Assembly (NCBI RefSeq): GCF_039555335.1
Contig: NC_092628.1
Span: 101,516,647 to 101,580,646 of the forward strand
Length of the DNA: 64,000 nucleotides
Direction: 5' to 3'
From: Amphiura filiformis
Lineage: Eukaryota > Echinodermata > Ophiuroidea > Amphilepidida > Amphiuridae
Shown one piece after another: positions 1-29,991 of this stretch; the stretch's first letter is position 1; each line of letters starts with the position of its first letter. The position numbers and the translations under genes are program-made. The notes beneath the pieces are model-generated. The model was not told where the DNA came from. It saw only the letters and a list, made by a program, of their open reading frames with translations, and ran no database searches.

Positions 1-3000
1 CAAGTTCATTGTTTACCTCTTGGTCGACTGTAACAGAAAATAGTTACAGAGTGCTATCTTCGCTAAGTAGTGAGGATGACATTAGATCCCCCTTAGCTGC
101 ATCGTCACCTATTCATATTCCAACTAGGCATCACGCAAGACACAGGTTTTCATAAGCGTACAAGATGGTCTGACAAGCCTACTACCACTGGTAGTGGCTG
201 TCCCTCCCCTAAGAACAAACCAGTCAAAGTCATGGTCATAAACTTCCAGAGCATCTGTAACAAAGTTGCCGAGCTGGCATTCTGTCTGGACGTAAATAGC
301 CCTGATATTTTAATCGGAACAGAGTCTTGGCTGTCGGATGACATAAGTAGTAGTGAAATTTTTCCATCAAATTATTCCGTCATCCGAAAAGATAGGCCCC
401 TTGATGACCATGGTAAGCGTTACGGTGGAGTCTTTATCTGTATGAAAAACGACATCATCATGTCACATCGTGCAGACTTGGACAGTGAGTGCGAAATACT
501 ATGGGCACAATTAGAGCTTGTCGGCTCCAAAAAAATCCTTTTAGGTGCCTTTTATAGACCCCCTGAATCGGGAAGTGATATACTAGAACAACTACAGGTG
601 TCTCTTTCCAAATTAGAGAATAACAAAGACCACAATATATGGTTGGCTGGTGATTTCAACCTCTCTCACATTGATTGGGAGGAACAGTCAACCACCCAGG
701 GTTGTCCAAAACCTGGGTTATGTAGGCAATTATTGGAATTAACCAATGATTTTGGCCTAGACCAGGTAGTCCGTGAACCAACTCGTGGTCAAAATATTTT
801 GGATTTATTTTTCGTGTCAAATACTAGCCTGGTCGGAAACGTGAGGGTTATTCCTGGGATGAGTGACCACAATGGAATTCCAGTGGTTACAATAAATACC
901 CGCCCAAAAGTTAACAAATCTAAACCCAGGAAGGTATTTTCATACCACAAAGCAGATTGGTCAGCCGTAAGGTCAGATCTCGCTGAGATTAGTAGTGATT
1001 TTCTAGATCTCTGTTCAGAGATGGTCACAGTTGATGAGATGTGGGATGATTTCTGTACCAGGGTCAAGGGTACTATGGAACGGAACATCCCTTCAAAGAT
1101 CGTAAGCCCTCACAAGAAACCTCCGTGGTTCAGTCGAAATGTCTCACGGTTGTATAGGAAGAAAAAGAAAGCCTTTAGCAAGGCAAAGCACTCAAACAGT
1201 ACTGAAGACTGGGAGATCTTTCGATCACTTAAGTAAACAGCTAAATAGAGAGTCTACTTGAAATTACCGTCAATATGTTAGAGACACATGTATGGTATCA
1301 ATGAAGAAGTTCTACTCCTTCATTAAGAGTCTTAAGCATGACTCTTTCGGCATTCCATCACTTAAAATCGATGGGAGACTAGTTTCTGAAAATATTAAGA
1401 AGGCTGACATCCTGAACCATCAATTTGAGTCAGTGTTCTGTAAGGAGAGACTTGATAATCTTCCACACATACCAGGTTCAAAATTTCCATGCATGCCAAA
1501 CATACATATATCCATCAATGGTATTGAAGAGCTACTGACAGACCTTGACCCGAACAAAGCAACTGGACCTGACGGCGTGCCTGCACGCATTCTAAAGATG
1601 GGGGCAAAGGAGATTGCGCCAGCCCTGGCGACCATCTTTAGAAAATCACTCGAGACTGGCAATTTGCCTGAAGATTGGAAGAATGCGAATGTAACTCCAA
1701 TCTTCAAAAAGGAGATCGCATACAGCCTTGCAACTATAGACCGGTTTCCTTACTTCTATATGTTGCAAGGTGATGGAACTATGTCATTCATTGAATGTCA
1801 TGAAACATCTTGACAAGTATGGCATATTGACCGACCATCAACATGGCTTTACGAAATCGATCGTGTGAATCTCAATTAATACTGACAACAAATGACTTAC
1901 GCCAAATCCCTCGACAAGGCGACAGACAGGCGTCATCATAATGGACTTCAGCAAGGCCTTTGATGTAGTACCACATCAGAGGCTCATGCTGAAACTTGCC
2001 CATTATGGTGTGGATGGACCGACGCTAACTTGGATTTCTAACTTCCTAATGCAAAGAAAGCAAAAGGTTGTTATAGGAGGTGATGCATCGGACTGGGTAC
2101 ATGTCAAATCAGGCGTTCCGCAGGGCACTGTACTCGGTCCTTTGCTTTTCTTATTATATATCAACGGCCTCCCCGACCAAATCTCCTCCACTGTCCGACT
2201 TTTTGCTGATGATTGTGTTCTTTACAGAACAATCAGCAATGACGAGACGCCGACAAACTCCAAAAAGGACCTTGACAGACTCTGTAGCTGGGAACATACA
2301 TGGTGCATGAATTTCAACATAGCCAAATGTGTTGTCTTAAAGGTTACAAGCGCCAAAGAACCAAAACAACATACATATTCACTAAATGGTTCCGTTCTTA
2401 GTCAAACAAATTCACACACATATCTTGGTGTAGACATCTCAAACAACATGAAATGGAAAAATCACATCAGTCAAGTAGCTGCAAAAGCTAACAGATCACT
2501 GGGTTTTATAAAAAGAAATCTACGGGGATGCACTGAAGATATAAAGAACATGGCTTATAAATCATTGGTGCGACCTTCCATGGAGTACTGCGCTGCAGTC
2601 TGGGACCCTTACACCGCGGACCAAATATACCAACTTGAAGCTGTTCAGCGCAGGGCTGCCCGCTTTGTTAAAAACATCTATGACAGGCGTAGCAGTCTCA
2701 CCGACATAAAGGCGGACCTGGAGTGGCCACTTCCATCTACCAGACGTAAAAAATCACGACTCAGCCAGTTCCAGAAAGCCTACGAAGGTCACCTAGCCAT
2801 CCCGGTCCAAACCCTGCTGCACCCGGTAACACGCTCCACCAGAAATAATCACAGCAAAGCATTCATACCACTTCAACCATCAAAGGACACCTACAAATTT
2901 TCATTTTTACCAAGGGCTGTCTCCGAGTGGAATTCTCTACCAGAATCAACAATAGCAATTACAGACCCAACAGCCTTCAAAGCACAACTGCAAGAAATCT

Positions 3001-3090
3001 TCATCTAAGAGAAAACAAAAAGCACACACACCATAAACCGGTTTATTTTCCCCACTTGGGGTGTTTAACCGTATCGAACTTGAACTTGAA
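1..3090 (+). mobile_element. CR1/L2-like non-LTR retrotransposon, decayed
   Basis: A LINE runs from before the window edge to about 3090. An open frame at 3-152 (Ser-rich, ending TAA) precedes the endonuclease and is probably the end of the previous ORF or a frameshifted ORF2 start. After the ORF2 stop at 3006-3008 a short 3' UTR ends in GAACTT hexamer repeats near 3075-3090, a typical 3' terminus of CR1/L2/Rex-like elements. The left boundary is outside the window. Clade assignment is by motif appearance only. Confidence 0.85.
100..3008 (+). pseudogene. LINE ORF2: APE endonuclease plus reverse transcriptase, frameshifted
   Basis: The product would nick target DNA and reverse-transcribe the element RNA. 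Endonuclease (to 1236): NFQSI start, GTESWL, FYRPP, GDFN and SDHN motifs, all the expected catalytic positions of the apurinic-endonuclease family. Reverse transcriptase (1292-3008): GPDGVP, then DFSKAFD, SGVPQGTVLGP and the FADD catalytic box, followed by a CR1-type C-terminal region (SMEYCAAVWDP). The coding region lies in three different frames with breaks near 1236-1292 and 1700-1940, so it cannot make a full protein. It lies upstream of the macro-TIR gene in the same orientation with no evident link. Confidence 0.88.
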
Positions 3091-5044: not shown

Positions 5045-5183
5045 ATGGCAGGTTTTGTGTTGCACGATTCCCTGAAGGTGCTGACACAGAATGGAGAATG
5101 CCAAATTGACTTGTGTTTTGGCGATATCACTAAGCTTAGAAGACAGGATAAAGTAGATGTGCTCATGGTTTCAGCTTTCAGGG
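5045..5183 (+). CDS. Macro-TIR gene exon 1 (start of macro-like domain)
   Basis: Encodes residues 1-46 and ends in phase 1 at AGGG|GTGAGT. It holds the GDIT motif and the VDVLMVSAF strand, corresponding to the GDIT...VDAIVNAAN region of canonical macro domains; the usual NAAN is replaced by VSAF. The frame is open upstream to the acceptor at 4991-4993, so an N-terminal extension of up to 17 residues from an upstream coding exon cannot be excluded. Confidence 0.8.
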
Positions 5184-6047
5184 GTGAGTATGTGTTTATA
5201 ATTTCCTATGGTACAAGAATATTAATTTATAATTATAGCCCATTAAGTAGGTAAATGAGAAATACGGGGAGAAATACCCCCATGGATGCGAGAATAGAGC
5301 ATGTAGTGCAGAGATGCTGACTCCCTATTTTAGAGGTCTAGGCTCCCTATTTTTGTAAACATTTTTGTCCGTTTTGACATCCAAATTTGGCAACCTCCCT
5401 ATTTCTGGCAAGTTTTGTGTCCTTGAAGTTGCATGTAATTTTGAAAACCTCCCTAATTTTTGTTTGAATCCTCCCTATTTTCTGGATGTTAATGTTGGCA
5501 TCTCTGGTAGTGTGATGGACCGGTAACTTTACACATCGATCCGAGAACAGTGACATCATACATTTGATCATAAGTCGTGATATCAATATGCTATTTTACT
5601 GCGGCTATTTTGCTGTTGGCAGCGTCATTTTTCTGCTGTTAATCATTCATTCATGAGGTTCGCCAACTTTTATGATATCATTTTAATAACTAAGTCTTTA
5701 TAGCAATACGCTATGAACACCACTGGCTTTGGATGACTAGAATTTGACATCTATGTATATTTTGATTATATTTTCTTTTTCTCAGGTGATTACACTCCAA
5801 CAGCAAGCTCAGTCATTGGTGCATTAAAACGTAGTCTGGGATTAAATGTACGTGATCTGGCCCGCAACAAGGAAGAAGATTTACGCAATTTATATTCATG
5901 TTGGTGGTCTCATCCGCTACCAGATAAAATGCCGTATAAACGTCTCTTGTGTTTTGAAACTAAAACGTAAGTTTTATTCAATGCTTAAGGTTATTATGAT
6001 TCAGTGAAGATGATGATGATGATGATGATGATGATGATCAATGTTTG

Positions 6048-6124
<77 letters not shown>

Positions 6125-9100
6125 GCAGTGATGACGGTGACAAAAACAATGAGGTGGAGGAGGAGGATCATGGTGAAGGTGCTCTTGAATCTGAAGTTAA
6201 TATCTTCATCAAAAAGTTGAACAAATCAGTGTAAATTAACACATGATATCTCAACCTGTTACAATTTTTAAAGAACTTTGGAATATTAACTACAGTCCAA
6301 CCTCTCTTATCCGGACCTCTTTTATATGGATCTCTCTGTTATCCGAATGTGAAATTTTCACAGGGAAATATGTTTTTGATGATTTACCACAGGTAATTCC
6401 ATGCTCTGAATGCTTAGAATGACATCTATGGTGCAAAAAGCACTCTAAAGCCATCTTTTAGTGTTATTACACCATGTTTAAACAATCTTTTGTTGTCACC
6501 ATTTTAGTACTTGGGACAGTCAATGCAGAATTACAAGTATTTCACTTATCCGGATTTTTCACTTATCCGGACAATGCTTGGTCCCATCTGAGGTTGGACT
6601 GTAGTTTAATTCTGTTTAAAATTCAAACATGTTGTTTTGGACCAATTTGTTTTGTATTATCATGATAAAAAGTCTTTAAAAGTGCTTATGATTTTAAGTT
6701 TCATTTTTGTCCTGATGGTACTTTCTTTCTATCATATTAGTTTTGGTATGGGGCGCCCTCAAGAGTTAGTTGCCAATGTTTACAGGTGCCTAGTACCAAT
6801 CTTGAATAATGAAGATGGAACTGTTATCACACCTCTCTTAAACACAGGAGATCAGGTAAGTTCAAACTGATGAGTTATATATTTATTTGCCCTGAAATTG
6901 GTCAGTTTTGCTAGATCTGTCACTGTAGATTGTGTGTCACCAGTGCTATGTTATATCCTGTTCATACCACAGAGAGGAAGCAATATTAGGCTGGTACAGT
7001 TGAAATCCATACACCCCCGTGGAAGACACATCCATGATATTCCACACAGTGGGTGTAGACTTCATATATAGTCAACTATTAAAATGGAAATTGTCACTCC
7101 CTGTGTGGAAGATTAAGGTCATGTACATGTCTTACATAGGGTATGAATGGATTTCAACTGGATGTTTCATTGTTCGTTCTGCTACATGTTAACAAAGTTC
7201 ATGTGCCACTTGGTCAAAGATACAAAATAGATATTGGGCTATTCCAGTTGAAATCCATATAACTCCTATGGAAGACATGACCTTTATCTCCGTAATGTGG
7301 TTATAGATTTCATATTGAGTCAGACATTCAGGTAAACCACATTTAAAATTCACACTATCTGTGTGGGAGACTAAGGTCGTGTCTTCTAAAGTGGGTGTAT
7401 GGATTTCAACTGGAATAGTTCATTGACTTTCCAGCATTTTCTGTATGTTTGTTTTTCATTTGATTTTTATGATCACTGATGTAAATGTTGTATTTTACGG
7501 AACTAAATAAATAAATAAAGTTAAGGAGATTTGAAATAAATAAATAATGAATAAATTAGCTAGGAGGAATGTCCACAAATCCACTTCCCAAATTTGCCCA
7601 TTTTCATGTACACCAACATTTGATGCTTTACAGTTACTATGTTGTCAACAAATGTCTGTAAATGGCATTGCTTGACTTACCAAAGTTTGGGAGTGTGATC
7701 TAGCCTTTAGACCTGTAATGTCTTACAGTAATCATGCAGATAGGAAGAAGCCTTTATGCTTTACCATGACAGGGTGTAAGACCTGTAATATATTACAGTT
7801 ATCATGAAGAAAGTGAGACGGCCTATATGCTTTATCTGACAGGGTGTACTACAATGTGAGGCATACACAATTAATATATGCCAAGGAGCAGAAATAAAGG
7901 ATGCAAGACCAAAAAGCAAGATTTAACTTTATAAAGCTTGGGCAAACTGGCAAATTGAGAGAGAGCGCAAAAAATTAGGACTCAGTGTGGTTTGAACCCC
8001 AGACCTCATGATTACCGGTTGAGAGTTACATGTATACCAACCTGAACTACATGAGTTCACGGTTGGTTCACAGGTCTCGCCTAGTATTAATTGCATACTC
8101 TCTCACTGTGTCTTTGCAACCAACTACAGTAATGTATAAAGAAAAACCAAGTAATACTTTAACATCCTTTGGAATGGGGCAATTCAAACATATCCTTTCA
8201 GACCAGTTTCAGCCTTACAATCAGACCCCTATAGTTCAAATCGCCAAACATATTTCACTCTTCAGGGGTATGGAGAAATTAGCATGTGTTAAAACAGTCT
8301 GTCCACATAGAAATACAAAGTAAACAGACCGCGGAAACTCGAGGTATGAGAATAATTATGTCGCTGCAATGCGTGTGTAAATACTTCTTTCGCACACCAA
8401 CTGCTGCACGATTTGTACTTGCCAAGCGCACCACGCTCTTTACGCGTCACATTTTTTAACACGCAGTGCATGGGTCGCGAAGCATCGACCCCCGATGCCA
8501 CAGATTTGGTTTGTACTTCTATGTGGACAAACTGAGGTATGGTGGTACCAGCTGTGAATTGGATTATTAAAAGCTGATGTTCTCTTAGAATCTCTGACCT
8601 TGCAAGATTGTTATAGTTATAAAACGTTCTTGAAAATGTTTATATTTCACTTTTCAGGGGTATAACCAAGTAAGCATGTTACAAGGCATGGTGGTAGCAG
8701 CAGTGAATTGGATGAAGGCTGGCCTTCCTCTCAGATTACTCAAAATTGTCCTCTATGCAAAGATTACAGATGACAAACTTAGTGCAGCGACCCTGAAACG
8801 TTTTACGCCTGTGTGCCACAAATTTGCTGAGCTGAAGGAGAGATATGATTCTCAGTATCTGGTGCCAAAGGTCAGTATTTTGACTATGAATTAATCATAG
8901 ATCACAAAGTTAGCTCCAAAAGTTGCCTGGTGTGATACAATACAAGTGGGGTGCACAGTTGCTATGCAATTTTTTGTTAAGCAAATATGCCCCTACGTTA
9001 CTACAAAACTCAAATTGAATGAATGTGTACTAGACCTGTTTGGATCAACCCAACAAGCACAAAATGTTTTACAGAAAATATTAGCATGAAAGTTCATCTG

Positions 9101-12100
9101 TGTTGGTAGACATAATTATGATTTTAAACTTTTGATCTCAACACAAGATTAGACATACCTCAAATTTTCGGTTGTAACTTCGACCTTCATCGGGAGACAT
9201 TTACAGAAAATGTTTAAATATTGGGTTATAATTAAGGGTATAAAATGTGACATGACCTTAATCTTCCGCACATGGTGTGCATTTCAAATGCGGGTATTTG
9301 AATGGAGGCTGTACCTTTTGAATTTGACATCTACCTCTTGTTTCTTGCATACAGGCTGTACCTATTGAATTTGACATCTACCTGTTGTTTCTTGCATACA
9401 GGCTGTACCTATAGAATTTGACATCTACCTCTTGTTTCTTGCATACAGGCTGTACCTATTGAATTTGACATCTACCTCTTGTTTCTTGCATACAGGCTGT
9501 ACCTATTGAATTTGACATCTACCTCTTGTTTCTTGCATACAGGCTGTACCTATAGAATTTGACATCTACCTGTCCTATTGTGAGGATGACAAAGGTGTTG
9601 TAGAAGCAATCCAAAACAAACTGAAAGCTGATAAACAAGATATCCGTATCTTTGGTGAACATCAGGAGATAGATGAAGAAGCTGTGTGGCAACAAGATAT
9701 GTATCAAGTGATGATGAGAAGTGCTAGGGTTGTCACAGGTAAGAGTTAGACAAAGAAGCTGTGTGGCAACAAGATGTGTATCAAGTGATGATGAGGAGTG
9801 CTAGGGTTGTCACAGGTAAAAAAAAGACACTCAAATCTTCTAGTACATGGCGCTATGGGGTGATTTTTTAGCATCTAGTTTTGCTACATTAGTGGAACCA
9901 ATGTTTTTTTTGCATCCTTACATGTTAAATGATAAAACTAGAATTGATTCTATTTTATATGCCCCCTATGCTTCCCATGAGGGGTCAAAGGCCATAAAAG
10001 GGCCAATATTTAATATTTGTTCTATCATGTTGTAATATACCTCAAATTGTTATTTCTCTTTACAGTTCTGAGCCCGCATTACCTGAAGTCTACTGCATGC
10101 GTAGAACAATACAACATAGCATTATGCTGCAATAGACGGGCTCATCGTGACATGCTAGCACCATTTTATGTGGACTCAATAGAGCTGATGCCAACCTATA
10201 TGGGCTTGGTGCAATATGTTGACTGCAGGTAAGAAATAGACATCTTCTATACTTTATAATAATGCACCATGTTTAGTAGTCCTATTGAGGCCCTGCATGC
10301 TTTTATCGATTGGCTCCAAACAAATGATTTGAACCGGTGTCCGTCACCATAATCATGGCGCAGTGCAGTACATTCAATCAAATGTCATCAACCTATTTGA
10401 TCGTAGTGCATTTGTTATGTGCGTGAGACAAACTGTCGCGGTAGATTGCAATCATGCTTTTGTTGAATAGGTTCAGATTTCTGAGGATAAGGCTATGCTA
10501 AAGTAATAATTTTCCAGTCATGTTGAAATAAAAAGGGGCCATTAGGCACATGTATACGTAGCTTTCATGCATTATTATGATATTGGGTGTAAGCTTTTGA
10601 AAGAGGAGATCATTGGGTGGCAGTCATGGAGTAAAAGGGTCCATTAATGAGACTTATAATGACCGTGCAGAAAATTACATTGGCACTTATCCTTTCTCCG
10701 GTCTCTCTTTAATAACTTTTGCAAGCCCGCAACTTTGGGGCTGTAGACAGTTCACAGTTTGAATAATTGACTAAAACTAACTAAAACAATTACATAAATG
10801 GCTATTCCAGTTGATAACCATACACACCCTAGTATAGAAGGCATAACTTTAATCTTCCACACAGGGAGTGAGAATTGTTAGTCAGTGGGAGTGGTCTAGG
10901 TCGTAAACACATAATCTGATTTGACAATGGCATGATTTCGAGTATAGTCTATCATGCTGTAGACGACCCCACATCATCATGAGTATTGATAATGTGTAAC
11001 ACGCTTGTAGAGGTATGTAGCGCGTTGTATGTGTCCACATATCGTGTAATACTTGCATGTTCTTGCAGTACGCGAAAATGAAGAGTAACGTTGTAAACAA
11101 GTTTCTTTAATTCTAGGATAACAAGAGTTTAAATAAAACAGTTTATAATCATAATAAGATAGTACTTATCTGCCTAGGAATGAGAATAACCTAGGAATGA
11201 GAATAAACTTTATGAATTTTTGCTTTTGTTATCCCCAACCATGTGATAGACGAAAGGCCTGCGCCGGTATCCACTACTGAAAATATTGGACCTGCCTGTC
11301 ATCTATCATACGGTAGAGGATAGTAAAAACAAAAATTCCTATCATTTATTCTCTAAATCTACACCCATATGTATTTATTTATTTATTTATTTACAACATG
11401 TTTACCCAGGGTAGCCCGATTCAGCCGAAGCTGGTCTAACACGGGCCCTGCAAAATACATAAAAGGAATATAATTATAGAGAATTACAAAGAATATAATT
11501 ATACAATTTACAACTCAAGCCATTATTAAAAGATACATTAAAAGAATATAAATCTCACATACATTTGTACAGTTTGCAATAATTATTAAAACTCACATGC
11601 CATTATTAAATGAACATTGATCCATAAAAACATCATATAAAACACATAATAACTCAGTAACATATATATTTCAAGATGTTATTTACATTATACACTATTT
11701 AATTAAAACTGGTGAAAATATACATTTTTGTAATACCGTTTAAAAGTTTGCACATTTATTGAGTTTCTAATATCATTTTCAATGTTGTTCCATAATTTTA
11801 CACCACTGTAACTGAACGATGATTTAAAACATTCTAAGTCATATCCATGAATTGAAGGTGGCAAAGCCAACTGACCAGCAGCAGCCTGTCGGGTGTGTTA
11901 ACATTGTGAGTTGTACATACATGGTTAAACATTTTTGCAAGATAATGTGGCGCCAGGCCATTAAGAGATTTATAAACCATTAGTGCTTTAAAATAATCAT
12001 TACGAGTGTGAAGCCGTTCCCAACCAAGAATTCTAAACATGAAATCAGATGAAGTTAAGTTGTTCACGCTCAAAATCACTCTTGCACAGCGTTTATGAAG

Positions 12101-15100
12101 AGAACATTAAGTTTGGAACTGTCATCTTTAAAACGACCATACCATGAGATGTTGCAATAGTCAAATATAGGCTGAACAAACGATTTAAAAATAACATTTA
12201 ATGTATCAATTTCAAGGAAAGGTTTCAGGCGTCTTAATAGCCCAATCTTACAGAAAACCTTTTGAATAATACTATTAACTTGATCATGCCATTTTAACTG
12301 ATCATCAACAACAACACCTAGGCATTTTGCCTTTCTTACTCTTTCCAGTTGTTTACCATTAACAAATACAGAAAAATCTTTCTCATTAACATTCCTTAAC
12401 TTACTCGCAGTTCCAATCAACATAACATTTGTCTTATCAGTGTTCAAAAACAATTTATTAACATTCAACCAATTCATTATTGAATCAAGATCAGAAGACA
12501 ATTTAGCAGATATATCTTGGGGGTCTTTACCACTGACGGAGAGTGTTGTGTCGTCAGCATACATAGATATTTGACCATGGGAAATTACTTTGTTCATACT
12601 GTTGATAAATATAAGGAAAAACAATGGACCTAGTATACTGCCCATGTAGGATATTAAGGACATGTTTTCCATTCACTCGGTCGGATATCTGGGAACATTG
12701 TCCCCTTATTGCACAAGCGCGCACATAGGAGGGGAACTGCACATGCGCACACTGATTTTACAAAGCTTTTTCCGCTGTGTGACGTCAGCCCAACCAAGAG
12801 AATAGAACGTGTATGGATTTCAAATGGGATAGCCCAATGAATATCTTTTATGAGTGAAATACTCATATAATATTTTATATCTTTATTTCATGACAGACCC
12901 AATGATGCAAAGAAGATCCATGAAGCCTGCTTATCCCTGCTTGGCTCCATGACAATCAAGGTTCATCTGGAGACATTGACAGTTGACCCTGCACCTATCC
13001 AGTATGATATCTTTGTCTCTTACTCACATAGAGATGACAAGATTGCTAAAAAGGTTATCAAGTTACTCCAGAAATTAGCCCCCAAACTCAGGATCTTTTT
13101 TGATATCCAAGAGCTGAAAACAGGTGAGCTCAAATTCACTTATATATTTCCACTTTCTGTTCTATTTTTTTAATTGGCAAAAACAAATGAGACTCATAAC
13201 ATCATGTGTTAACGCGGCTGTGTACTCTAGCCATTGTTTCTTTCTCAAAATTGAGTTTTTATGATGTTTGTACCTTGTTATGTTTTTTATAAATACAAGG
13301 AATGAAAATCCAGATTTGTAAACTCCAACTGCAATATTTTAAGGATTTTATTTCACTATTCCACTCGTGTTTGAAATTGAAAAGGAAAGAAAATCTTTGT
13401 TGTACCAGCAAGGTACACTTGGCATAACAACTCATCGCGTTAGCGTATCGTGCAATTTGTTAACGCACAAATACGCTTGCGATATCTGCGGCGCTTATCT
13501 GCATGCGTGGCGCATCTTATGGAAACACCACGGAAGCACTGATTTCACAAAAACCTAGTGGTCAAATGGCTCCGTTTTAGCTGATAAAATGTGGGTTTTT
13601 TCAAGTTCTTTCCCCGATTTAAATATCAAGTTATGAATGGATTTCGCTCAAACTTCTCAAGGGGCTGTGGATTTACCCGATGTTCACGTAATATAAGTTT
13701 CAAAAGCGAAAACTGTCGCATTCTCCTGTGAGATTCGATGAAAGTGCAAAATGTGACCACTTTAAACTTCAACAGCCATTATTTCAATGTTCATTTTCTC
13801 GGTAAAATGACGATTTAGGTACACGATAACTCAATAAATACAGCGTCTGCAGGTAGGCAGATAGGAACAGCGTCAAGAGCGGGATCGGCTCAAGAAACGA
13901 TGGTCTCATTATCTTTTAATTTGGTCTATTTCCGATTTTGGGCATCATTTTGTGCAAATAGGCGTTTTGAATTTTAAAAAGTTCATTTTGATGCCTTATA
14001 TGGTCAATATCTCAAAAAATAAGGCCAATATCAAAAAAAAAAAAAACGTTTTTGGAATGGAGCCTCAAGATTGAGCTAAAAACAAAATAAAATATTTTGG
14101 AAAGAGTGTTTTTTGTTATGATGTACCTAACAAATATTGCCAAAAACTCACTTTTTGTGATTTTCTTCACAATTGTTGTTTTACCCCAAATCTGTATTTA
14201 TATTAAGATTTATTGATGTCTTGCCTTCATAAAAATGTATACTTTTATAAATCTTGCGCGAATAATTACAAAGTTATTGCACTTTTACTACATGCATGTC
14301 TGAGAGTACACAGCCACCTTAATATACAATGGCATGCACGCAGTTGGGTACTGTACCTATGCTAGTGTTGAGTAATGTATGACTGGGGCGTGCTTATGTG
14401 AATTTACATAAGCGTGAGTTGGTACTTTATTGATGCATGCAGTAACAAAAACCAAATAATTTTCACCAATTATAAGCCAAACAAACGTTAGTTTGTAAAT
14501 GACCAAAGAGATTGAGAACTTTTGTCAACATCTCTGAAGTAAGCTCTTGTCAAAGGTTTGCAGCAATTTACTATAGTTGAGTAAATCAACATGAGATGAA
14601 TGATGATTGTGACATAATTGAAGAAATAGTCTTTCAAATTTTTGGTAATTCTGAATTGAAGGAGCTGTGGGATTAATAAAGAGTCCCAAGACTCATTTGT
14701 ACTGCCAAGCATTCTTTGAATGGGATTACAAAAACAAAGCAAAATCACACATTTGAATCAGCACAATGTATAATTTCTGGTAACAAAACTGAATGTTTGT
14801 GAATTGGACTATTCCAGTTGAAATCCATACACCCCTTTCAAAGAAAATCTCCCACACAAAGGGGTGTAGATTTCAAATGGAGTCACCCAGTTTGGTAATT
14901 TGAAATTCTCACTCCCTGTGTAGGAGATTAAGGTCATGTCTTCCATAGAGGGTGCACATATGAATTTCAAGTTAAATACACATGCATTCTGTTTCCTTTC
15001 AACAGGCAAGGCATGGCAGCGTACCTTGTACCATTCTATAGATGGTAGTCGATGCTTATTGGCTCTGATCTCAGAGAACTATACCAAGTCCCCTGTCTGC

Positions 15101-18100
15101 CAAGAGGAGTACAATCTGGCATTAGCTAAACACTGCTCAGGGGTAAGGGTACATACTCATATGTGACCAGCTACCACGAAATGAGCGTAAAGTCAGCTCA
15201 GCTGGCAGGATGTCTCGAAACTACCAACTTTCGACTTAACACTCATTCCATGGTAGCAGGTCACATATTGTCCTTTTTCTTCTCATTTTCTGCTTTTTTT
15301 ACAATATTCTTCTTTTGCTTTTCTGCTTCTCTCCATGCTCCACTTCCTTTCCTTTCCTTTACTCTTCCCCTCCTCTACTTATCCTCCTCCGCTTTCACAT
15401 TTTCTTTTTTCTCCTCTTCCTCATTCTCATTCTCTGTGTTTTCTTTTAGATTTAAACTTTCTGCTTTTACATCCGGAAAGGAAAGCCTCACAATTCCCAC
15501 CTATTTTTGATGCTGATCAAAGCTTAGACTTATGAATGGTAGTTTCCTTTGGTGTCAGTGGGCTATTCCAGTTGAAATCCATACACCCCCTATGGAAGAT
15601 GCATGACCTTAATCTTCCTCACAGATGGTATGAATGTCCCAGAGGTGAATGTCTTCCATAGGGGGGGGGTCTATGGATTTTTGACAGGAAAAGTACATTC
15701 CACTGTGTTTAGAGAACTTGAAAGTAGTACCAGCTGAACTTATACATTCCTTCCATCACAGGATGGTTCCATGCAGTTAGTTCCATTGTGTTTAGAGAAC
15801 TTGAAAGAAGTACCAGCTAAACTTATACATTATTTCCATCACAGGATGGTTCCATGCAGTTAGTTCTACTTTGTTTAGAGGACTTGAAAGAAGTACCAGC
15901 TAAACTTATACATTCCTTCCATCACAGGATGGTTCCATGCAGTTAGTTCCACCTTGTTTAGAGAACTTGAAAGAAGTACCAGCTAAACTTATACATTCCT
16001 TCCATCACAGGATGGTTCCATGCAGTTAGTTCCACTGTGTTTAGAGGATTTGAAAGAAGTACCAGCTAAACTTACACATTCCTTCCATCACAGGATGGTT
16101 CCATGCAGTTAGTTCCATTGTGTTTAGAGGACTTGAAAGAAGTACCAACTAAACTTATTCATTCCTTCCATCACAGGATGGTTCCATGCAGTTAGTTCCA
16201 CTTTGTTTGAAAGACTTGAAAGAAGTACCAACTAAACTTATACATTCCTTCCATCACAGGATGGTTCCATGCAGTTAGTTCCACTGTGTTTAGAGGATTT
16301 GAAAGAAGTACCAGCTAAACTTACACATTCCTTCCATCACAGGATGGTTCCATGCAGTTAGTTCCATTGTGTTTAGAGGACTTGAAAGAAGTACCAACTA
16401 AACTTATTCATTCCTTCCATCACAGGATGGTTCCATGCAGTTAGTTCCACTTTGTTTGAAAGACTTGAAAGAAGTACCAACTAAACTTATACATTCCTTC
16501 CATCACAGGATGGTTCCATGCAGTTAGTTCCACTGTGTTTAGAGGATTTGAAAGAAGTACCAGCTAAACTTACACATTCCTTCCATCACAGGATGGTTCC
16601 ATGCAGTTAGTTCCATTGTGTTTAGAGGACTTGAAAGAAGTACCAGCTAAACTTATACATTCCTTCCATCACAGGATGGTTCCATGCAGTTAGTTCCATT
16701 GTGTTTAGAGGACTTGTAAGAAGTACCAGCTAAACTTATACATTCCTTCCATCACAGGATGGTTCCATGCAGTTAGTTCCATTGTGTTTAGAGGACTTGA
16801 AAGAAGTACCAACTAAACTTATACATTCCTTCCATCACAGGATGGTTCCATGCAGTTAGTTCCATTGTGTTTAGAGGACTTGAAAGAAGTACCAACTAAA
16901 CTTATACATTCCTTCCATCACAGGATGGTTCCATGCAGTTAGTTCCACTTTGTTTGGAAGACTTGAAAGAAGTACCAGCGACCTTCAGTAAAGTGAAGCT
17001 GATTAAAGCCACTCCTGATGTATTTGATGCTGTTACCAGTACAGTGTGTAAGGCTGTGGTTAGCTGGCTCACAGGGAAGCAGGTGGATGCTGATGTGCAA
17101 CATATACTCAATCAAGATGAGGTAGGAATATTGGGCTATTCTATTTGAAGATTTTGTTAAAGTCTTCCACAGAGGGAGTATGTGTTTCAAATAGAATATG
17201 TAATTGGGTAACTTCCATTTGAAATACTCACCTCAATTGTAGAAGATATAGATAAAGTCATGTGTAGGGGGAGAATTAGACTGTTCTGCATTCCCTTTTT
17301 GATAAACAATTCATACCATTCCATGCATAAAACAAAACACATCCCCAGTGACTGCCCTGCCCAGAGAATGGTTGGATCAGAACAGGATTGGTGGATTTCC
17401 ATGGTCAGACGGAATAGAGGGATGAAAAATTAAAATGGTCTAGTACAGTAGACTAGGGGAGAATGAGTTGCAAAATAATTAACCCAAGTTACAGTCATGA
17501 AAAGTCCCCTGGTCTAAAGTGAATGAAACTTGTTTACAAATTCAGTTGCGCGTAGTGTGATCCCTTATTACACACTGTTCTTGAAACGCACTACATACAT
17601 GCAGCTAGTGCACCTCGACAAGGGTGTTCCATGACGACATGGACACTGCTGTGTACTGTCAACTACGGTGTGATAGACTACATCCACTGGAACCAATGAA
17701 ATTTGGCGCTTATGGGTTAAACCACAATCACTGAATAAGAATTACGCTTCTTGCACTTATAAACTGTTTAGTTACTCATTGGCAGTTTACTCATTGGTAG
17801 ACAAAATATAAATTTTCTGTCCTGAATTATTACTCCTTATGTCATAACAGAACCCATCCTGTGATGTCAAACAAGTAAGTGAAGATCAACGCAGCAGAGA
17901 CTTTACCACCAAGTATGGCAGTGCTGATAAAAAGCTTCTATCCATGAAAAAAGACTTTGCTGAAAAGATCCACCTTCACCTAAAAGAAAGCACATCAGAT
18001 GCCACCTCAGATGAAAAGGGAGAAGTTGTTGACATCGTCTTCAGCTGCGCTCAAGAAGATTGGAAGTATGCCACTGTCTTGAAGGCCATCTTCAAGGATA

Positions 18101-20422
18101 CAGCTCCAGATTTGGTGGTGAAGACCCCTACTAATGCAGACAAAGATCGTCTCATACTGATGGACACAGCTCAATGTGTCGTAGCCTTCTTATCACCCAA
18201 TTACTTGGATTCCCCTGAGCAAGTTGAAGAGTTCCACATTGCCTTGTGCAGACAGCGTATTAGCCCAGCTACTGTGCTCTTCCCTCTCATAATCCACCCG
18301 TTGCCACAGAAACCAACCTACTTTCATCTTGTTCCTTGCACCTTGAATATCTCTGATTCATTGTGGGCAGCATTAGGAACCAAATGGAATGTACACATGC
18401 CACTTTCACAAATAGATCTGGGACGAGGATATGATGCTGATAAGTCTGTTCCTGCAGAAGAGGCATTGGGATTGCATGAGGCAGCACATATTCTTATAGA
18501 GCGACTGGCTGAAAATAAAAGGTAGGTAGGAATACGGGTTGGAGTGGGGTAAGGGTTGGAGTGGGGTAGAGTGATAATGGGATGAGTCTGATAAGTCCAT
18601 CCCTACAGAGAATCATTGGGATTGCACAAGGCTGCACATCTTCTTATAGATCGACTGGCTGGAAATGAAAGCTGATGATATACATAGCATGAAGTTTAAT
18701 TCTATTTAGGGGAGTGTATTTTGAATTCATTATGCCTCCACAGAAAGTGTTGCGAGTGCAATTTCTGGGAACTGGTAGGGCGTACAATGATGTGATTTGA
18801 TGGAGGGGTGGCAATTGGCAGTTTTCAAATTTGTCGCAAAATATGCTAATTTGGTAGCTCATTTGCATAAATCAAAAGCACAATAGTGATGTGTGATTTG
18901 GTGGAGGGTGGCTATTGGTAGTCTTCAAATTTCACTAGGTTTTTGTTGCAAAATATGCTAATTTGGTAGCTCATTTGCATTGTTCAAAACTTGTGAGCAT
19001 GATGGAAGTAAAGGAGAGTGAAACCTCCATATGCAGCCATGATGGGGCCAAGCATTAAAATATATTGAAATTTAGGATGATTTGGTTAGGCACATTGGGT
19101 AATTCCACTCCCCCTGTGGAAGATTTAGCAAACATTTTTCAGAGAAGGAGTATGGGTCACAAATAGAATAGACAATTGGGTATCTTCCATTTGAAATTAT
19201 CTGCCAGTTGTGGAAGATGTAGGTAAAAGCCATATCAGGCGAGTATGGGTTTCAAAATAATTAACCCCAGCCAATTCTATTTGAAAAACATCCTCCCTCT
19301 GTGGAAAGCTTTTCTTAATATTCCACAGGTGTATGGCGAACCCATTACTAATTGGGTCTTCAAACAGCTCTTTTTACTTTTGTCATTGATAACAGGGTAC
19401 TAGTAGCTGCAGATAGCACTTTCACAAGACCAGTTCTTCATAATGTGCCAAGAATTCAGGATGAACTTCAAAAAGGATCAAAGGGCAGCAAAGATACCAT
19501 AAAACTAGCAAAGGTAAGAACAAATGGGGACATTTCCCTGCTATGATTGCAGTGTTGTCTCTTGAGGATGAAAAGATAATCCTTGACCATAATTTGTGAC
19601 TTCTGTTTATAGATTAGGGCTCTTGCATGGGGGAGGAAGAAATACAGGGATGTGCCACTGAATTCACCTATTGCACGGTTCCGCCATATGCTATATGAAA
19701 GGAAGTATTGCGTAACTTTACGCAATATTATATGACTGGTTCAATCAAGGGTTCAATTCCCATTCATGCATGCTGCCAGATCGAGGCTCTCCTCGCATAT
19801 GGCGGAACCGTGCAATGGGTGAATAAAAGGCCATATTTAAACAAATAAGTTTTGATAATGTGGTCCAAAATTGGAGTCTCATGTATACTTATGGGGCATT
19901 GGTATAAATGGGATAAAGTATCCCCTTACGTTGCCTAAATTTTTAGTTACCACATTCTTACTACTACAGATACTTGTAACTCTCAACATCATTGCTGATG
20001 TAGCTCTCATTGAGCTATTGAAAGAAGACACTACAGTCATGCATGAATCAAATCCATCACAAAGCAATGATGACCCAACACCTACACACTCATCTGATCC
20101 ATTGCCTGCACCTGATCTGCAAACCACCTCACCCATGCATGAAAACCCAATACTGCATGCTGATGACACCAACACCAAAGAACCTGCTGCTGCTGCTGGT
20201 GGTGGTGCTGCCATGAGCACTGAGCCACCAATGGAAACTAAAGTGTGTGAATTTAATCAAGAAGCCAATAATGATGATGATGGTACTAGTCCCAAAGAGC
20301 CTTCACAGGAGAATATTAAGTCAGAAAAAAAGCTCCCTAGTCATGGTAATGATGAGTTGAGAAGGGTGCAACTTCAGGCAAAGAGGGAGCGACGTAAATC
20401 AACTGTATGTGGACTGATGTAA
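5045..20422 (+). CDS. Macro-like domain protein with three TIR domains and CaaX-like C-terminus (12 exons)
   Basis: Exons: 5045-5183, 5786-5966, 6741-6855, 8658-8870, 9543-9738, 10066-10228, 12897-13123, 15006-15142, 16924-17121, 17851-18521, 19396-19513, 19970-20422. All introns are GT-AG and all phases fit, giving 2811 nt (936 residues plus stop). Residues about 17-190: macro-like fold (GDIT at 26-29, VDVLMVSAF at 37-45, TGDQGY at 142-147). TIR1 about 221-345 (FDIYLSYCEDD), TIR2 about 370-500 (YDIFVSYSHRDD), TIR3 about 582-700 (VDIVFSCAQEDW). The position matching the TIR NADase glutamate is Gln296 in TIR1, Glu446 in TIR2, Glu650 in TIR3. Residues 787-936 are acidic and Ser/Pro/Asn-rich, ending in a basic patch and CGLM. 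There is no signal peptide or membrane span, so it is probably cytosolic or lipid-anchored. TIR domains of this kind signal by assembly or cleave NAD+; macro domains bind ADP-ribose derivatives. An innate immune role is inference. The start at 5045 is in a good context (CAACATGG); an acceptor at 4991-4993 suggests an upstream untranslated exon. Confidence 0.85.
5786..5966 (+). CDS. Macro-TIR gene exon 2
   Basis: Acceptor TTTTTCTCAG, donor AAAAC|GTAAGT (phase 2). Encodes residues 47-106, beginning GDYTPT. It holds the conserved-looking SVIGALKRSLGL helix and a CWWSHPLP segment. This exon has no long open frame of its own and is recognised from splice signals and phase continuity with exons 1 and 3. 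Confidence 0.8.
6009..6123. repeat. GAT trinucleotide microsatellite
   Basis: Two GAT runs (6009-6038 and 6047-6123) in intron 2 of the macro-TIR gene. Poly-Met and poly-Asp reading frames across them are by-products of the repeat. Confidence 0.95.
6741..6855 (+). CDS. Macro-TIR gene exon 3
   Basis: Acceptor TATCATATTAG, donor ATCAG|GTAAGT (phase 0). Encodes residues 107-145: FGMGRPQELVANVYRCLVPI, then an ITPLLNTGDQ strand-loop that resembles the PALGTG phosphate-binding loop of macro domains. Confidence 0.82.
6990..7163. mobile_element. MITE of the GGCTATTCCAGTTGAAATCC family, copy 1
   Basis: Inverted repeat: CAGTTGAAATCCATACACCC at the left and TGGATTTCAACTGG at the right, with internal inverted blocks (GGAAGACA...; ...GGAAGATTAAGGTCATG). 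Intron 3. It belongs to a family seen at least eight times between 7 and 21 kb. Confidence 0.7.
7237..7427. mobile_element. MITE of the GGCTATTCCAGTTGAAATCC family, copy 2
   Basis: Left end GGGCTATTCCAGTTGAAATC, right end GGATTTCAACTGGAATAG. A near-palindrome in intron 3, about 75 bp after copy 1. Confidence 0.75.
7865..8090 (-). mobile_element. tRNA-derived SINE
   Basis: On the minus strand a tRNA-like head reads TAGTTCAGGTTGGTATACA (A-box like, about 8055-8035) and GGGGTTCAAACCACACTGAG (B-box like, about 8005-7985), spaced as in a tRNA gene. A non-tRNA body follows towards 7865. It does not fold as a full tRNA, so it is a SINE or pseudo-tRNA and not a functional tRNA gene. Confidence 0.5.
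8295..8534. mobile_element. Short MITE with about 25-bp TIRs
   Basis: CAGTCTGTCCACATAGAAAT at the left is matched by the reverse complement of ATGTGGACAAACTG at the right; the TIR continues inward (ACAAAG / TTTGTAC). About 240 bp, in intron 3, no coding capacity. Confidence 0.7.
8658..8870 (+). CDS. Macro-TIR gene exon 4 (end of macro-like domain)
   Basis: Acceptor CACTTTTCAG, donor CCAAAG|GTCAGT (phase 0). Encodes residues 146-216: GY completes the TGDQGY loop, followed by the helix MLQGMVVAAVNWMKAGLPLR and the strand LLKIVLYAK, matching the helix-strand end of macro folds. The exon closes with a charged linker into TIR1. Confidence 0.82.
9306..9572 (+). repeat. 47-bp tandem array of the exon 5 splice acceptor
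   Basis: Six copies start at 9306, 9353, 9400, 9447, 9494 and 9541. Each holds the intron end TTTCTTGCATACAG and the first 30 bases of exon 5 (GCTGTACCTATTGAATTTG and on). Only the last continues into the exon. 47 is not a multiple of three, so upstream acceptors would shift frame if the copies were included. Confidence 0.95.
9543..9738 (+). CDS. Macro-TIR gene exon 5 (TIR1, N-terminal half)
   Basis: Acceptor TTTCTTGCATACAG at the last of six 47-bp copies, donor GTCACAG|GTAAGA (phase 1). Encodes residues 217-281 with TIR box 1 (FDIYLSYCEDD) and a box-2-like RIFGEHQEI. Both exon edges are duplicated in the adjoining introns. Confidence 0.85.
9745..9815 (+). repeat. 77-bp-offset duplication of the exon 5 donor edge
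   Basis: The last about 65 bases of exon 5, including GTTGTCACAG|GTAA, are repeated directly 77 bp downstream with a few substitutions (GATATG to GATGTG, GAGAAG to GAGGAG). The second copy keeps a GT donor. Use of the distal donor would include an in-frame TAG from the intervening GTAAGAGTTAG. Confidence 0.9.
10066..10228 (+). CDS. Macro-TIR gene exon 6 (TIR1, C-terminal half)
   Basis: Acceptor TTCTCTTTACAG, donor GACTGCAG|GTAAGA (phase 2). Encodes residues 282-335 beginning VLSPHYLKSTACVEQYNIAL, the TIR helix that carries the NADase glutamate in catalytic members. Here the aligned residue is Gln296, with Glu295 immediately before it. Confidence 0.85.
11199..11352. mobile_element. Palindromic MITE
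   Basis: Left GAGAATAAACTTTATGAATT and GTGATAGACG match the reverse complement of the right end (GAATTCCT-like ATTCCTATCATTTATTCTC, CATCTATCATACGG) with moderate divergence. About 155 bp; intron 6. Confidence 0.55.
11371..12645 (-). mobile_element. 5'-truncated non-LTR retrotransposon, RT fragment
   Basis: Minus-strand LINE remnant in intron 6, antisense to the macro-TIR gene. The coding part begins inside the reverse transcriptase at GSILGPLFFLIFIN (12640), passes the catalytic YADD (about 12560) and LNTDKT, and runs to SFVQPIFDYCNISWYG. A frameshift near 12076 separates the C-terminal segment (ILGWERLHTRNDYFKALMVY). The 3' end has a TAAA-type tetranucleotide tail (TTTA repeats at 11371-11393 on the plus strand). 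5' truncation is typical of LINE insertion. Confidence 0.9.
12897..13123 (+). CDS. Macro-TIR gene exon 7 (TIR2, N-terminal half)
   Basis: Acceptor TTTCATGACAG, donor AAAACAG|GTGAGC (phase 1). Encodes residues 336-411: a linker helix (NDAKKIHEACLSLLGSM), then TIR box 1 YDIFVSYSHRDD and box 2 RIFFDIQELKTG. It is the clearest TIR sequence of the gene. Confidence 0.9.
13209..14322. mobile_element. TTAA-bounded nonautonomous element (piggyBac-like target)
   Basis: TTAA at 13209-13212 and 14319-14322 flank inverted termini: GGCTGTGTACTCT at the left and AGAGTACACAGCC at the right, each three bases inside the TTAA. The 1.1 kb interior is AT-rich with no transposase. It lies in intron 7. Confidence 0.7.
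14806..14973. mobile_element. MITE of the GGCTATTCC family, copy 4
   Basis: GGACTATTCCAGTTGAAATC at the left, ATGAATTTCAAGTTAAAT at the right; inner inverted blocks AAATCTCCCACACAAAGGGG and CTCACTCCCTGTGTAGGAG. It ends about 30 bp before the exon 8 acceptor, so it forms part of that intron's 3' end. Confidence 0.7.
15006..15142 (+). CDS. Macro-TIR gene exon 8 (TIR2, catalytic helix)
   Basis: Acceptor CCTTTCAACAG, donor CTCAGG|GTAAGG (phase 0). Encodes residues 412-457: GKAWQRTLYHSIDGSR, LLALISENYTKS, then VCQEEYNLAL, in which Glu446 aligns with the NADase glutamate of SARM1-type TIR domains. Confidence 0.85.
15267..15480 (+). repeat. Pyrimidine-rich tract
   Basis: About 210 bp of almost pure C/T with scattered CTTCTTT and CCTCCTC runs in intron 8. 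Simple low-complexity sequence; the open frames it supports (Phe/Ser/Leu/Pro-rich) are not genes. Confidence 0.85.
15559..15690. mobile_element. MITE of the GGCTATTCC family, copy 5 (partial)
   Basis: Left end GGGCTATTCCAGTTGAAATC; right end GTCTATGGATTTTTGACAGG. It is shorter than other copies and lies immediately before the 83-bp array. Confidence 0.65.
15694..16923 (+). repeat. 83-bp tandem array of the exon 9 splice acceptor
   Basis: Fourteen full units start at 15762 and every 83 bp to 16841; the fifteenth (16924) is the real exon. Each unit carries TTCCTTCCATCACAG, the first about 55 bases of exon 9 (GATGGTTCCATGCAGTTAG and on), then GCTAAACTTATACA. A partial unit precedes 15762. Units at 16011, 16094 and 16177 (types A, B, C) recur as A-B-C-A from 16260, a 249-bp higher-order period. 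Several units keep the open frame, but 83 is not a multiple of three and no unit has a donor. Confidence 0.95.
16924..17121 (+). CDS. Macro-TIR gene exon 9 (TIR2 end)
   Basis: Acceptor CCATCACAG at the end of an 83-bp tandem array of its own acceptor edge; donor GATGAG|GTAGGA (phase 0). Encodes residues 458-523: DGSMQLVPLCLEDLKEVP closes the TIR fold, followed by the helix ATPDVFDAVTSTVCKAVVSW. The last unit alone continues into coding sequence (GCGACCTTC instead of GCTAAACTT). Confidence 0.85.
17133..17203. mobile_element. Short MITE, GGCTATTC variant family
   Basis: GGGCTATTCTATTTGAAG at the left and TTTCAAATAGAATATG at the right form a small palindrome with TCTTCCACAGAGGGAG inside. It is a relative of the main MITE family and lies just after the exon 9 donor. 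Confidence 0.6.
17851..18521 (+). CDS. Macro-TIR gene exon 10 (complete TIR3)
   Basis: Acceptor TCATAACAG, donor AAAAG|GTAGGT (phase 2). Encodes residues 524-746. A charged linker (524-580) precedes a divergent TIR held in one exon: VDIVFSCAQEDW, then CVVAFLSPNYLDSPEQVEEF with Glu650 at the catalytic-like position, and FPLIIHPLP. It differs from TIR1 and TIR2 in having no intron after box 2. Confidence 0.85.
18580..18675 (+). repeat. Decayed duplication of the exon 10 3' edge
   Basis: About 95 bp repeats the end of exon 10 (GATAAGTC, CATTGGGATTGCA, CTTATAGA.CGACTGGCTG) with substitutions, about 150 bp downstream of the original. It is separated from the donor by a short GGGTTGGAGTGGGGTA direct repeat. 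It has lost the donor and frame. Confidence 0.85.
18785..18985 (+). repeat. Direct duplication in intron 10
   Basis: A block with ATGTGATTTG(A/G)TGGAGGG, TTCAAATTT and AAAATATGCTAATTTGGTAG occurs twice, about 105 bp apart. Noncoding. Confidence 0.8.
19096..19300. mobile_element. MITE, GGCTATTC variant family
   Basis: Contains GGGTAATTCCACTCCCCCTG, CACAAATAGAATAGACAATT and CTTCCATTTGAAATTATCTG in an inverted arrangement related to the 17133 element. Intron 10, just upstream of exon 11. Confidence 0.5.
19396..19513 (+). CDS. Macro-TIR gene exon 11
   Basis: Acceptor TTGATAACAG, donor GCAAAG|GTAAGA (phase 0). Encodes residues 747-786, a basic linker (LVAADSTFTRPVLHNVPRI, QKGSKGSKD). No domain is recognised. 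It is supported by splice signals and by the frame match to both neighbours. Confidence 0.7.
19663..19825. mobile_element. MITE with 28-bp TIRs
   Basis: TTCACCTATTGCACGGTTCC and GCCATATG at the left match the reverse complement of CATATGGCGGAACCGTGCAA and TGGGTGAA at the right with one mismatch. About 163 bp, intron 11. The interior includes GGGTTCAATTCCC, a B-box-like string, but no tRNA fold. Confidence 0.85.
19970..20422 (+). CDS. Macro-TIR gene exon 12 (tail, stop, CaaX-like end)
   Basis: Acceptor TTACTACTACAG; TAA stop at 20420-20422. Encodes residues 787-936: a hydrophobic start (ILVTLNIIADVALIELL), about 110 residues rich in Pro, Ser, Thr, Asn, Asp and Glu, then basic RRVQLQAKRERRKSTV followed by C933-G-L-M936. 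A cysteine four from the end with terminal Met after a polybasic stretch resembles farnesylation sites; Gly at the first aliphatic position is atypical. No AATAAA was seen close downstream. Confidence 0.75.
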   Translation: MLVTLNIIADVALIELLKEDTTVMHESNPSQSNDDPTPTHSSDPLPAPDLQTTSPMHENPILHADDTNTKEPAAAAGGGAAMSTEPPMETKVCEFNQEANNDDDGTSPKEPSQENIKSEKKLPSHGNDELRRVQLQAKRERRKSTVCGLM

Positions 20423-21590
20423 AATAATGGGGGAAGCTTGTTTTATTTTCTCATCAATATTTTGCCATGAAATGTAAGTTGAGTTGTGCAGTTCCATAAT
20501 GCTGTTATATCCACAGAGTTGCATCACTTCCATGCATGCACCCTTCTTTGACTGACACATGTTTGCATCTTGTTCTTCTGCATTGGTCCAAGTTAACCCA
20601 CCTGCACTATACACATAGCTCTTAGTTTGTTCTCTGTTTTCTTGTATTTTCTTTTATCAATGTCTGACATACTTTGTGTTTTCATCTTTATTTTTGACAT
20701 ATTTGTGTTTTATTTTGTATACATTTCATCCTTTTTATATTTTATTTCAGATTCTTATAAACCTGTCTTTGAAAGAGTAATGGGTAAGACATGTCCAAAG
20801 TGAAGATATTTTTCAATTTTAATTTTAATTTTAAACACAAAAAGATTGAGACCTAGCATCTCAATCTCAAGGATATAATGGGCTATTCCTGTTGAAATCT
20901 ATACACCCCCAGTGTGGAAGACATGACCTCAATCTTTTGAAATCTACACTCCCTGTGTAGGAGATTAAGGTTATGTCTTCCATAGGGGTGTATGGATTTC
21001 AACTAGAATAGTGCAGTTGTCATCAAAGTAGGCTCACTGTAGATGATGTGACATCATACCAAACAGTTGGTTGCCAGATACCACTGTGGGCATGCATCCT
21101 GTTTGGTTGAGGACCTGTGCCTTCAAAAACTGTGTCAAATCAGATAATGGGCAATAAGGCTGTTGGGAAGTGAAATGGTACACGGACAGTTCCCTCAAGC
21201 ATATAGATTAACCATTTCCTTGCCCTTGTTTATAAACATTGCTGTCACATCATCTATAGCTTTACATGCAGTCAAAAGAAAAGATCTTCACTTTGATTCC
21301 AAGCTTGGTGAAAGTCAATGAATGTTGTCACAGTTATATAATATATCATACTGCCCTCTCGACAAAGAAGCTTTGTTTTAGAATTTCCTTTTCTCATAGA
21401 ATTAGACAGGAGGAGGCAGACTCCATGTAGCCCCATGAGTAACACTATTGGATTGTCATTATGGGGATTAAAATGGTGAAACACTAGCATATTTTGGTAT
21501 CAAAAGTTAATATGGTTGTTATAATTCATGATTGTTGCAATGGTTTGTACATCATTGGTGCAATTTGCCTTATATACAGATTTTTTTTAA
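20423..21590. other. 3' flank of the macro-TIR gene with one MITE
   Basis: The flank holds the 3' UTR or intergenic DNA. A clear GGCTATTCC-family MITE lies at 20880-21011 (GGGCTATTCCTGTTGAAATC ... GGATTTCAACTAGAATAG). No further exon, RNA gene or polyadenylation signal could be supported. Confidence 0.6.
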
Positions 21591-29828: not shown

Positions 29829-29991
29829 CAGAGTTGCACGCATGCTCAATTAAGTGGAAAACGGCGTCATCTTTGAACACTGAGCATTCACGCAATTCAC
29901 TTCTCTGCCAAAGCGATCGAGTGTAAATTCAGCATTATGCTGAGTGAGATGCCAGCCACAATTGTCTAATATCCAATATGAAATACTCACG

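Follow-up and report, generated by a model that had tools for sequence, protein, structure and literature searches.

A macro-like domain before three TIR domains in an Amphiura filiformis gene, and a bacterial protein that shares the macro-TIR unit

In type II Thoeris, the products of TIR enzymes are readable by macro domains, and ligand binding can drive the formation of macro oligomers, according to PMC11204291. Specifically, TM-macro ThsA has ADPR or imidazole adenine dinucleotide as its ligand and forms oligomers; the paper also gives the ligand contacts of the ThsA macro domain and counts several macro classes as hydrolases (PMC11204291). In animals, SARM1 is a TIR protein with NADase activity (PMC7075850). 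The same paper describes a TIR glutamate (E75, between strands C and D) as critical for TIR NADase activity and as rare in MyD88 (<10%), and adds that the frequency of this residue is not necessarily correlated with activity (PMC7075850).

Here we describe a gene of Amphiura filiformis in which a macro-like domain precedes three TIR domains. A preliminary description had suggested that it could be an animal counterpart of a TIR-macro immune circuit. The core macro-TIR pair is not peculiar to animals and is also found in a bacterial protein. What is remarkable is less an animal invention than a macro-TIR unit that bacteria have too and that has grown larger in the animal. To judge from the sequences, bacterial machinery seems to have been put to new use in an animal and extended there. 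Among the open-access matches listed, titles and abstract openings do not name a macro-TIR architecture in animals, by which we do not claim its absence from print. The comparison shows direct, colinear homology between a TIR protein of an animal and a two-domain protein of a bacterium, adds a candidate to the signalling parts common to bacteria and animals, and brings out a macro subfamily without a significant match in Pfam, NCBIfam, PADLOC or PHROGs. It also makes testable, starting from the 335-residue bacterial protein, the question of whether SARM1 is alone among animal TIRs in using NAD-derived signals.

Gene structure and domain order

The window (the whole 64,000-nucleotide stretch of DNA analysed here) carries on its plus strand, at 5045-20422, a predicted gene of 12 GT-AG exons with consistent phases and zero internal stops, which join to 936 codons and a stop closing at 20422 (Table 1). 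The 12 exons and their fitting phases had been proposed in the preliminary description, as had the order of a macro-like domain, marked by GDIT and TGDQGY, before three TIR domains in one gene; all of this holds. The two motifs lie at residues 26-29 and 142-147. In a Pfam search that covered the whole protein in five pieces, TIR_2 (PF13676, cut-off 28 bits) was matched three times: clearly by TIR1 (64.3 bits, E 2e-17) and TIR2 (74.8 bits, E 1e-20), and barely above the cut-off by TIR3 (28.7 bits, E 2.1e-6). The three TIRs are 24-27% identical to one another. The last 190 residues gave nothing above the Pfam cut-off.

The first six exon junctions are crossed by an alignment to the intronless frame of the bacterial relative described below, here called L006. 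Junctions 1/2, 3/4, 5/6 and 6/7 are gap-free in this alignment, a 2-residue gap adjoins junction 2/3, and junction 4/5 lies inside an 11-residue linker gap. For the junctions beyond exon 7, the only basis is splice consensus and the continuity of the TIR domains, of which TIR2 extends over exons 7-9.

Table 1. Coordinates of the exons of the animal gene (positions in the window) and of bacterial genes discussed in the text
Feature	Location	Strand	Content or context
Exon 1	5045..5183	+	Residues 1-46 plus base 1 of codon 47; start of macro-like domain, GDIT (Asp27)
Exon 2	5786..5966	+	Macro-like domain; motifs DYTPT...IGAL, K..DLR, CW.S
Exon 3	6741..6855	+	Macro-like domain, TGDQ at exon end
Exon 4	8658..8870	+	Macro-like domain up to residue 216; phase-0 boundary to TIR1
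Exon 5	9543..9738	+	First half of TIR1 (TIR_2 E 2e-17)
Exon 6	10066..10228	+	Second half of TIR1; Gln296 at putative catalytic position
Exon 7	12897..13123	+	End of TIR1 and start of TIR2 (from about 12988)
Exon 8	15006..15142	+	Core of TIR2; Trp415; Glu446 at putative catalytic position
Exon 9	16924..17121	+	TIR2 up to its end at about 17005, then linker
Exon 10	17851..18521	+	Linker and degenerate TIR3 (about 18019-18349); Glu650
Exon 11	19396..19513	+	C-terminal linker
Exon 12	19970..20422	+	Tail without recognised domain; polybasic stretch, CaaX box CGLM (Cys933), stop
Last 17 codons of gene	20369-20419	+	In exon 12
Bacterial macro-like-TIR gene (L006)	G060:C1:1280627-1281178 (L006:1087-2094)	minus	335-residue protein
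ZacC-like helicase	L037:3724-6978		G220 (PADLOC); in a row with the ECF sigma factor and kinase-macro-like genes
ECF sigma factor	L037:7518-8348		G220
Kinase-macro-like gene	L037:8335-10086		G220
PDC-S11-like gene	L037:14030-14476		G220 (PADLOC); further on from the kinase-macro-like gene

Three tandem arrays in total lie on splice sites of this one gene. The exon-5 acceptor is covered by a 47-bp unit repeated 5.7 times (9306-9571), and the end of exon 5 with its donor by a 77-bp unit repeated 1.9 times (9676-9819). The third array, an 83-bp unit in 15.4 copies (94% matches, 15698-16979), contains the exon-9 splice acceptor and exon start. Fifteen copies retain the acceptor and start with DGSMQLV; the last copy alone is open and the other 14 stop, a striking pile of decoy acceptors for exon 9.

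Elsewhere in the window, we labelled by eye reverse-transcriptase-like frames on the plus strand (97-3005 and 39864-40591) and on the minus strand (12079-12672 in intron 6, 41933-43788 and 61530-63360), and a tandem pair of highly alike TGF-beta-superfamily-like frames on the minus strand (29097-29849 and 31433-32319). Together with the introns, both kinds of frame give the window the look of animal DNA. A short dispersed repeat (about CCAGTTGAAATCCATACACCCC), likewise recognised by eye, recurs in introns and flanks, for example at 7000-7420, 14810-14990, 15560-15620 and 20885-21010.

Bacterial relatives of the macro-TIR unit

Of 396 genomes taken from the same phylum as an Acidobacteriia record, and hence Acidobacteriota by that title, two have relatives of the N-terminal domain. 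One genome (G060) has a single locus, matched at E 1.5e-36 with 43% identity over animal residues 18-207; the other (G220) has three copies, with E between 2e-20 and 4e-14. No additional family member came from profile searches of three overlapping sets, which comprised 41, 396 and 162 genomes. The L006 protein of G060 consists of a macro-like domain followed by a TIR domain (Pfam TIR_2 1.4e-19) and is the one bacterial example of this arrangement found among the 396 genomes. BLASTP of the animal protein against it gave one alignment with 113 of 338 columns identical (33%; E 2e-56 in this single comparison). The alignment covers exons 1-6 and the first part of exon 7 in colinear order; it takes in the macro-like domain, the linker and TIR1, and stops where TIR1 ends (animal ...YVDCRPNDAKKIHEACLSLLGSM, bacterial ...YDDCREADHERLAEICQDIAGSV). 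Therefore the macro-TIR pair is common to the animal and bacteria, and with a macro-like domain directly before a TIR in colinear order, the animal gene belongs by sequence with the bacterial macro-like-TIR proteins. The L006 TIR is also matched by TIR2 (34% over 107 columns) and TIR3 (27% over 116 columns), and the alignment of both to the same bacterial TIR fits duplication. The preliminary description had linked the gene to the TIR-macro circuit of Thoeris; a relationship to bacterial TIR-macro proteins stands in part, but the nearest found is this single-chain protein.

The L006 gene has a BlaR1-type/BlaI-like pair on one side and a pyruvate-kinase-like gene on the other (the latter two labels by eye), with no clear defence island around it. 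In the same genome, a pentapeptide-repeat-TIR gene adjoins a phage-type integrase (L034:112-1092 and 1092-2108), 7-8 kb from the L006 gene.

In the three G220 proteins (L007, L012 and L013), the macro-like domain lies C-terminal to a Ser/Thr kinase and is 27-32% identical to the animal domain. At all three loci an ECF sigma factor gene precedes the kinase-macro-like gene; Table 1 gives one of the surroundings. The fusion to a kinase would be as expected of an interchangeable regulatory module.

Macro ancestry of the N-terminal domain

Library searches leave residues 1-216 without a family. There were zero Pfam matches, and none in NCBIfam, PADLOC or PDB sequences (limit E 10, although HMMER filters discard most matches above about E 0.1) or in PHROGs (limit E 1). 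With the limit set at E 10, neither the animal domain nor any of the four bacterial members matched the Pfam Macro family (PF01661). For the N-terminal domain of L006 there was no Pfam or PADLOC match, and a weak NCBIfam one (E 0.17) looked irrelevant. The best match of a PDB profile search, not significant at E 0.34, was a viral non-structural polyprotein chain, which we take to be a macro domain; Src and SQD1 came next.

Searches of other sequence collections were also negative. As a single query, residues 1-216 found no relative in the viral contigs or genome contigs scanned; viral contigs gave nothing with the bait alignment or with the family alignment A2, and plasmids held zero relatives of the bacterial macro-like domain at E<=0.01. 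Four tblastn matches of residues 1-216 in plasmids and phages (E 2-8) were judged to be chance; of the three inspected, one had no listed gene, one overlapped an HNH gene and one lay opposite a long frame. A degenerate DNA pattern run over the genome contigs matched one Acidobacteriia contig, also judged to be chance, as no frame of at least 80 aa was open on that strand.

Comparison of profiles gives a different picture. The preliminary description had suggested comparing residues 1-216 with macro folds by profile search and by structure prediction. With hhalign, the five-member family aligned to six macro proteins over 172 columns at E 6.7e-8 (probability 94.6), with a score of 54.6; none of 60 column shuffles exceeded 22.1, and the reversed alignment reached 12.6.

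The genome searches point the same way. The single-sequence search of the 396 genomes gave, besides the four family loci in two genomes, four weak matches (E 0.001-0.008 per genome), each alone not significant over 396 genomes, so that their identity is what counts: three are Macro (PF01661) proteins and the fourth is a frame with stops. The profile search of the same genomes, with at most seven candidates scored per genome, gave 16 matches outside the family at E<=0.01 per genome, and all 16 carry a macro signature. Eight proteins run against Pfam (five of the 16 and the three weak-match proteins) all matched PF01661, with E no higher than 2e-35. Of the 16, 13 are orthologues that hardly differ from one another, two others belong to the same group and one is separate, and therefore they represent few independent events. 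The majority are restricted to the final third of the domain.

The fold was predicted for the bacterial relative L006 only. In its AlphaFold2 model, strands and helices follow one another over residues 1-193 as in a macro fold. Confidence is modest: the mean pLDDT is 57, with block means of 54-87 as far as residue 190, and values drop below 50 at residues 137-142 and over almost the whole TIR part, which was modelled without aligned relatives. Foldseek against the PDB returned macro entries, by title or known identity, as 42 of the 50 matches listed, among which the target TM reached 0.74. We recognise these as macroH2A, Af1521 and a design on it, PARP14/15, O. iheyensis, MacroD2, trypanosome and YmdB entries. 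The other eight of the 50, one of them at rank 1, are SPX-domain entries, presumably crystallised on a macro carrier, which would account for their presence. The profile comparison with its shuffle control and the predicted fold of L006 both place the domain in the macro fold superfamily, and on these comparisons residues 1-216 are a divergent macro domain.

Proposed function and comparison with known systems

Pocket residues were read from a joint alignment of the five family members (the animal and four bacterial) with four macro proteins. All five members keep the Asp of GD[IL] and a single Gly of the STGxxG loop; the GDQGY loop is common to the animal (TGDQGY) and L006 (AGDQGY) only, and the Gly-rich GGGG loop is not retained in the family. 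In all five, Val stands in place of the first NAAN Asn and Ile in place of the GGVDG Asp. At the second NAAN Asn the animal has Gly, L006 and L007 retain Asn, and L012 and L013 have Asp. Invariant residues of the family include Tyr49, Pro51, Lys75, Arg80, Cys85, Trp86, Ser88 and Glu104. The roles of the NAAN asparagines and the GGVDG aspartate, like the atom contacts to ADP-ribose, are general macro-domain knowledge. Nucleotide binding by the macro-like domain is plausible, and given the changes of pocket residues, ADP-ribose binding is not assured. MacroD-type hydrolysis appears less plausible for the family than nucleotide binding, least of all in the animal.

At the position of the TIR glutamate, TIR1 has Gln296, TIR2 has Glu446 and TIR3 has Glu650; the L006 TIR also has Glu. 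The preliminary description had cast the TIRs as signal producers, which suits them unequally. TIR1 is probably not the producer, because Gln replaces the putative catalytic Glu, although a Glu immediately precedes Gln296 (CVEQY) and a shifted catalytic Glu is therefore possible. TIR2, with a canonical BB-loop, Trp415 and Glu446, appears to be the best candidate for a signal producer among the three. TIR3 is degenerate and is without the Trp segment after the BB loop.

The animal protein ends in ...KRERRKSTVCGLM, a basic stretch followed by a CaaX box with terminal Met, a feature that the preliminary description overlooked. The window has 1203 frames that end in a stop and are at least 30 aa long. 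Seven of them end CaaX-like and the macro-TIR gene alone adds a basic stretch; this combination was chosen after the tail was seen, and 1 in 1203 is a guide only. A CaaX box with terminal Met would favour farnesyl transfer. By its motif only, the tail looks prenylated.

We tentatively propose that the gene encodes a signalling protein, probably intracellular, built on a bacterial-type macro-TIR unit and working as a sensor-transducer chain, and we put the probability of this reading at slightly under one half (about 0.48). The macro-like domain, with its GD[IL] Asp and first phosphate-loop Gly, would bind an ADP-ribose-type nucleotide and act as the sensor. TIR2 would cleave NAD, or assemble around an NAD-derived signal; TIR1 (with Gln as in MyD88) and TIR3 would be a scaffold for TIR-TIR assembly, and the polybasic-CaaX tail would tether the assembly to a membrane. 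Within one chain, ligand on the macro-like domain might gate TIR assembly, or the domain might read the TIR product. TIR and macro domains are covalently joined, and therefore the signal could act in cis. The role would most plausibly be in cell-autonomous immunity or regulated cell death.

An alternative, which we consider somewhat unlikely, is a pure scaffold: a MyD88-like adaptor without NAD chemistry, whose macro-like domain has kept its fold, lost its ligand and serves protein-protein contacts or autoinhibition. It would agree with the PDB matches of TIR1, of which MyD88 makes up seven of ten distinct sequences including the best ones, with the Gln that TIR1 and MyD88 share at the catalytic position, with the best PDB matches of TIR2 (TLR2/TLR15 TIRs, then a plant TIR, with bacterial TIRs further down) and with the loss of several macro pocket residues in the animal. 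It sits less well with Trp415 and Glu446, both retained in TIR2, with TIR2 being the animal TIR closest to the L006 TIR (31% against 22% and 24%), and with the GD Asp and the loop Gly kept throughout the family.

More speculative than the sensor-transducer chain, and in our view unlikely, is an animal immune switch of bacterial descent, with producer and sensor of an NAD-derived signal on one prenyl-anchored chain. TIR2 would make an ADP-ribose-type nucleotide, which the macro-like domain would bind, either in that molecule or in a neighbour; the bound domain would then lock the TIRs into a membrane-bound assembly, and the signal would not need to diffuse. To our knowledge, such a switch would have no precedent, either as a TIR-macro circuit in an animal or as one in a single chain.

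The preliminary description had offered 'sensor or eraser' for the macro-like domain. As an eraser, the domain would act on an ADP-ribose mark or signal that the TIRs had made, hydrolysing or reversing it. Its macro ancestry, the hydrolases among macro classes (PMC11204291), the second NAAN Asn kept in L006 and L007, and the possibility that the invariant K75, R80, C85, W86, S88 and E104 form another active site are in favour of this. The MacroD-type ADP-ribosyl hydrolase residues, however, read Val, Gly and Ile in the animal, and the Val and Ile recur in every family member. Since MacroD features are mostly lost, a sensor is likelier, and we infer that the macro-like domain is a sensor and not a MacroD-type eraser; erasure is disfavoured in the animal and seems distinctly improbable.

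We regard as doubtful to a similar degree a recent, idiosyncratic horizontal acquisition by one animal from a bacterium, without established function. The 43% identity over residues 18-207 and the patchy occurrence (2 of 396 genomes) speak for it; the 11 introns, the three diverged TIRs and the tail absent from the bacterial protein speak against it and hint that the gene has been in the animal for a long time, with selection keeping its frame open. A gene-model artefact, in which N-terminal exons of another gene were joined by reading, finds some room in the long introns, the arrays on splice sites and the frame in intron 6, but is very hard to reconcile with the colinearity of exons 1-6 and the start of exon 7 with a single bacterial frame.

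We favour the sensor-transducer chain, and it can be set beside the systems described so far. Type II Thoeris couples TIR enzymes to a macro domain, and the animal protein likewise has TIR and macro-like domains; by analogy, it may work like type II Thoeris. It is not type II Thoeris itself, because it is one chain instead of two proteins, a separate TIR (ThsB) and a macro effector (ThsA) with transmembrane helices, and zero PADLOC models match residues 1-216. SARM1, with its ARM-SAM-TIR architecture, is an animal TIR protein too, but the macro-TIR protein has no ARM or SAM match in Pfam. MyD88 is the most similar to TIR1 among solved chains and has the Gln in common with it; unlike MyD88 and other TIR adaptors, the macro-TIR protein is without a death-domain match and has instead three TIRs and a macro-like domain. 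The kinase-macro-like proteins of G220 have a domain of the same macro-like family, placed C-terminally and with a kinase as partner. L006 shares with the animal protein the order of macro-like domain and TIR (33% identity over 338 columns); it has one TIR only, with the catalytic Glu, and no C-terminal tail, and to this unit the animal protein adds two TIRs and a tail.
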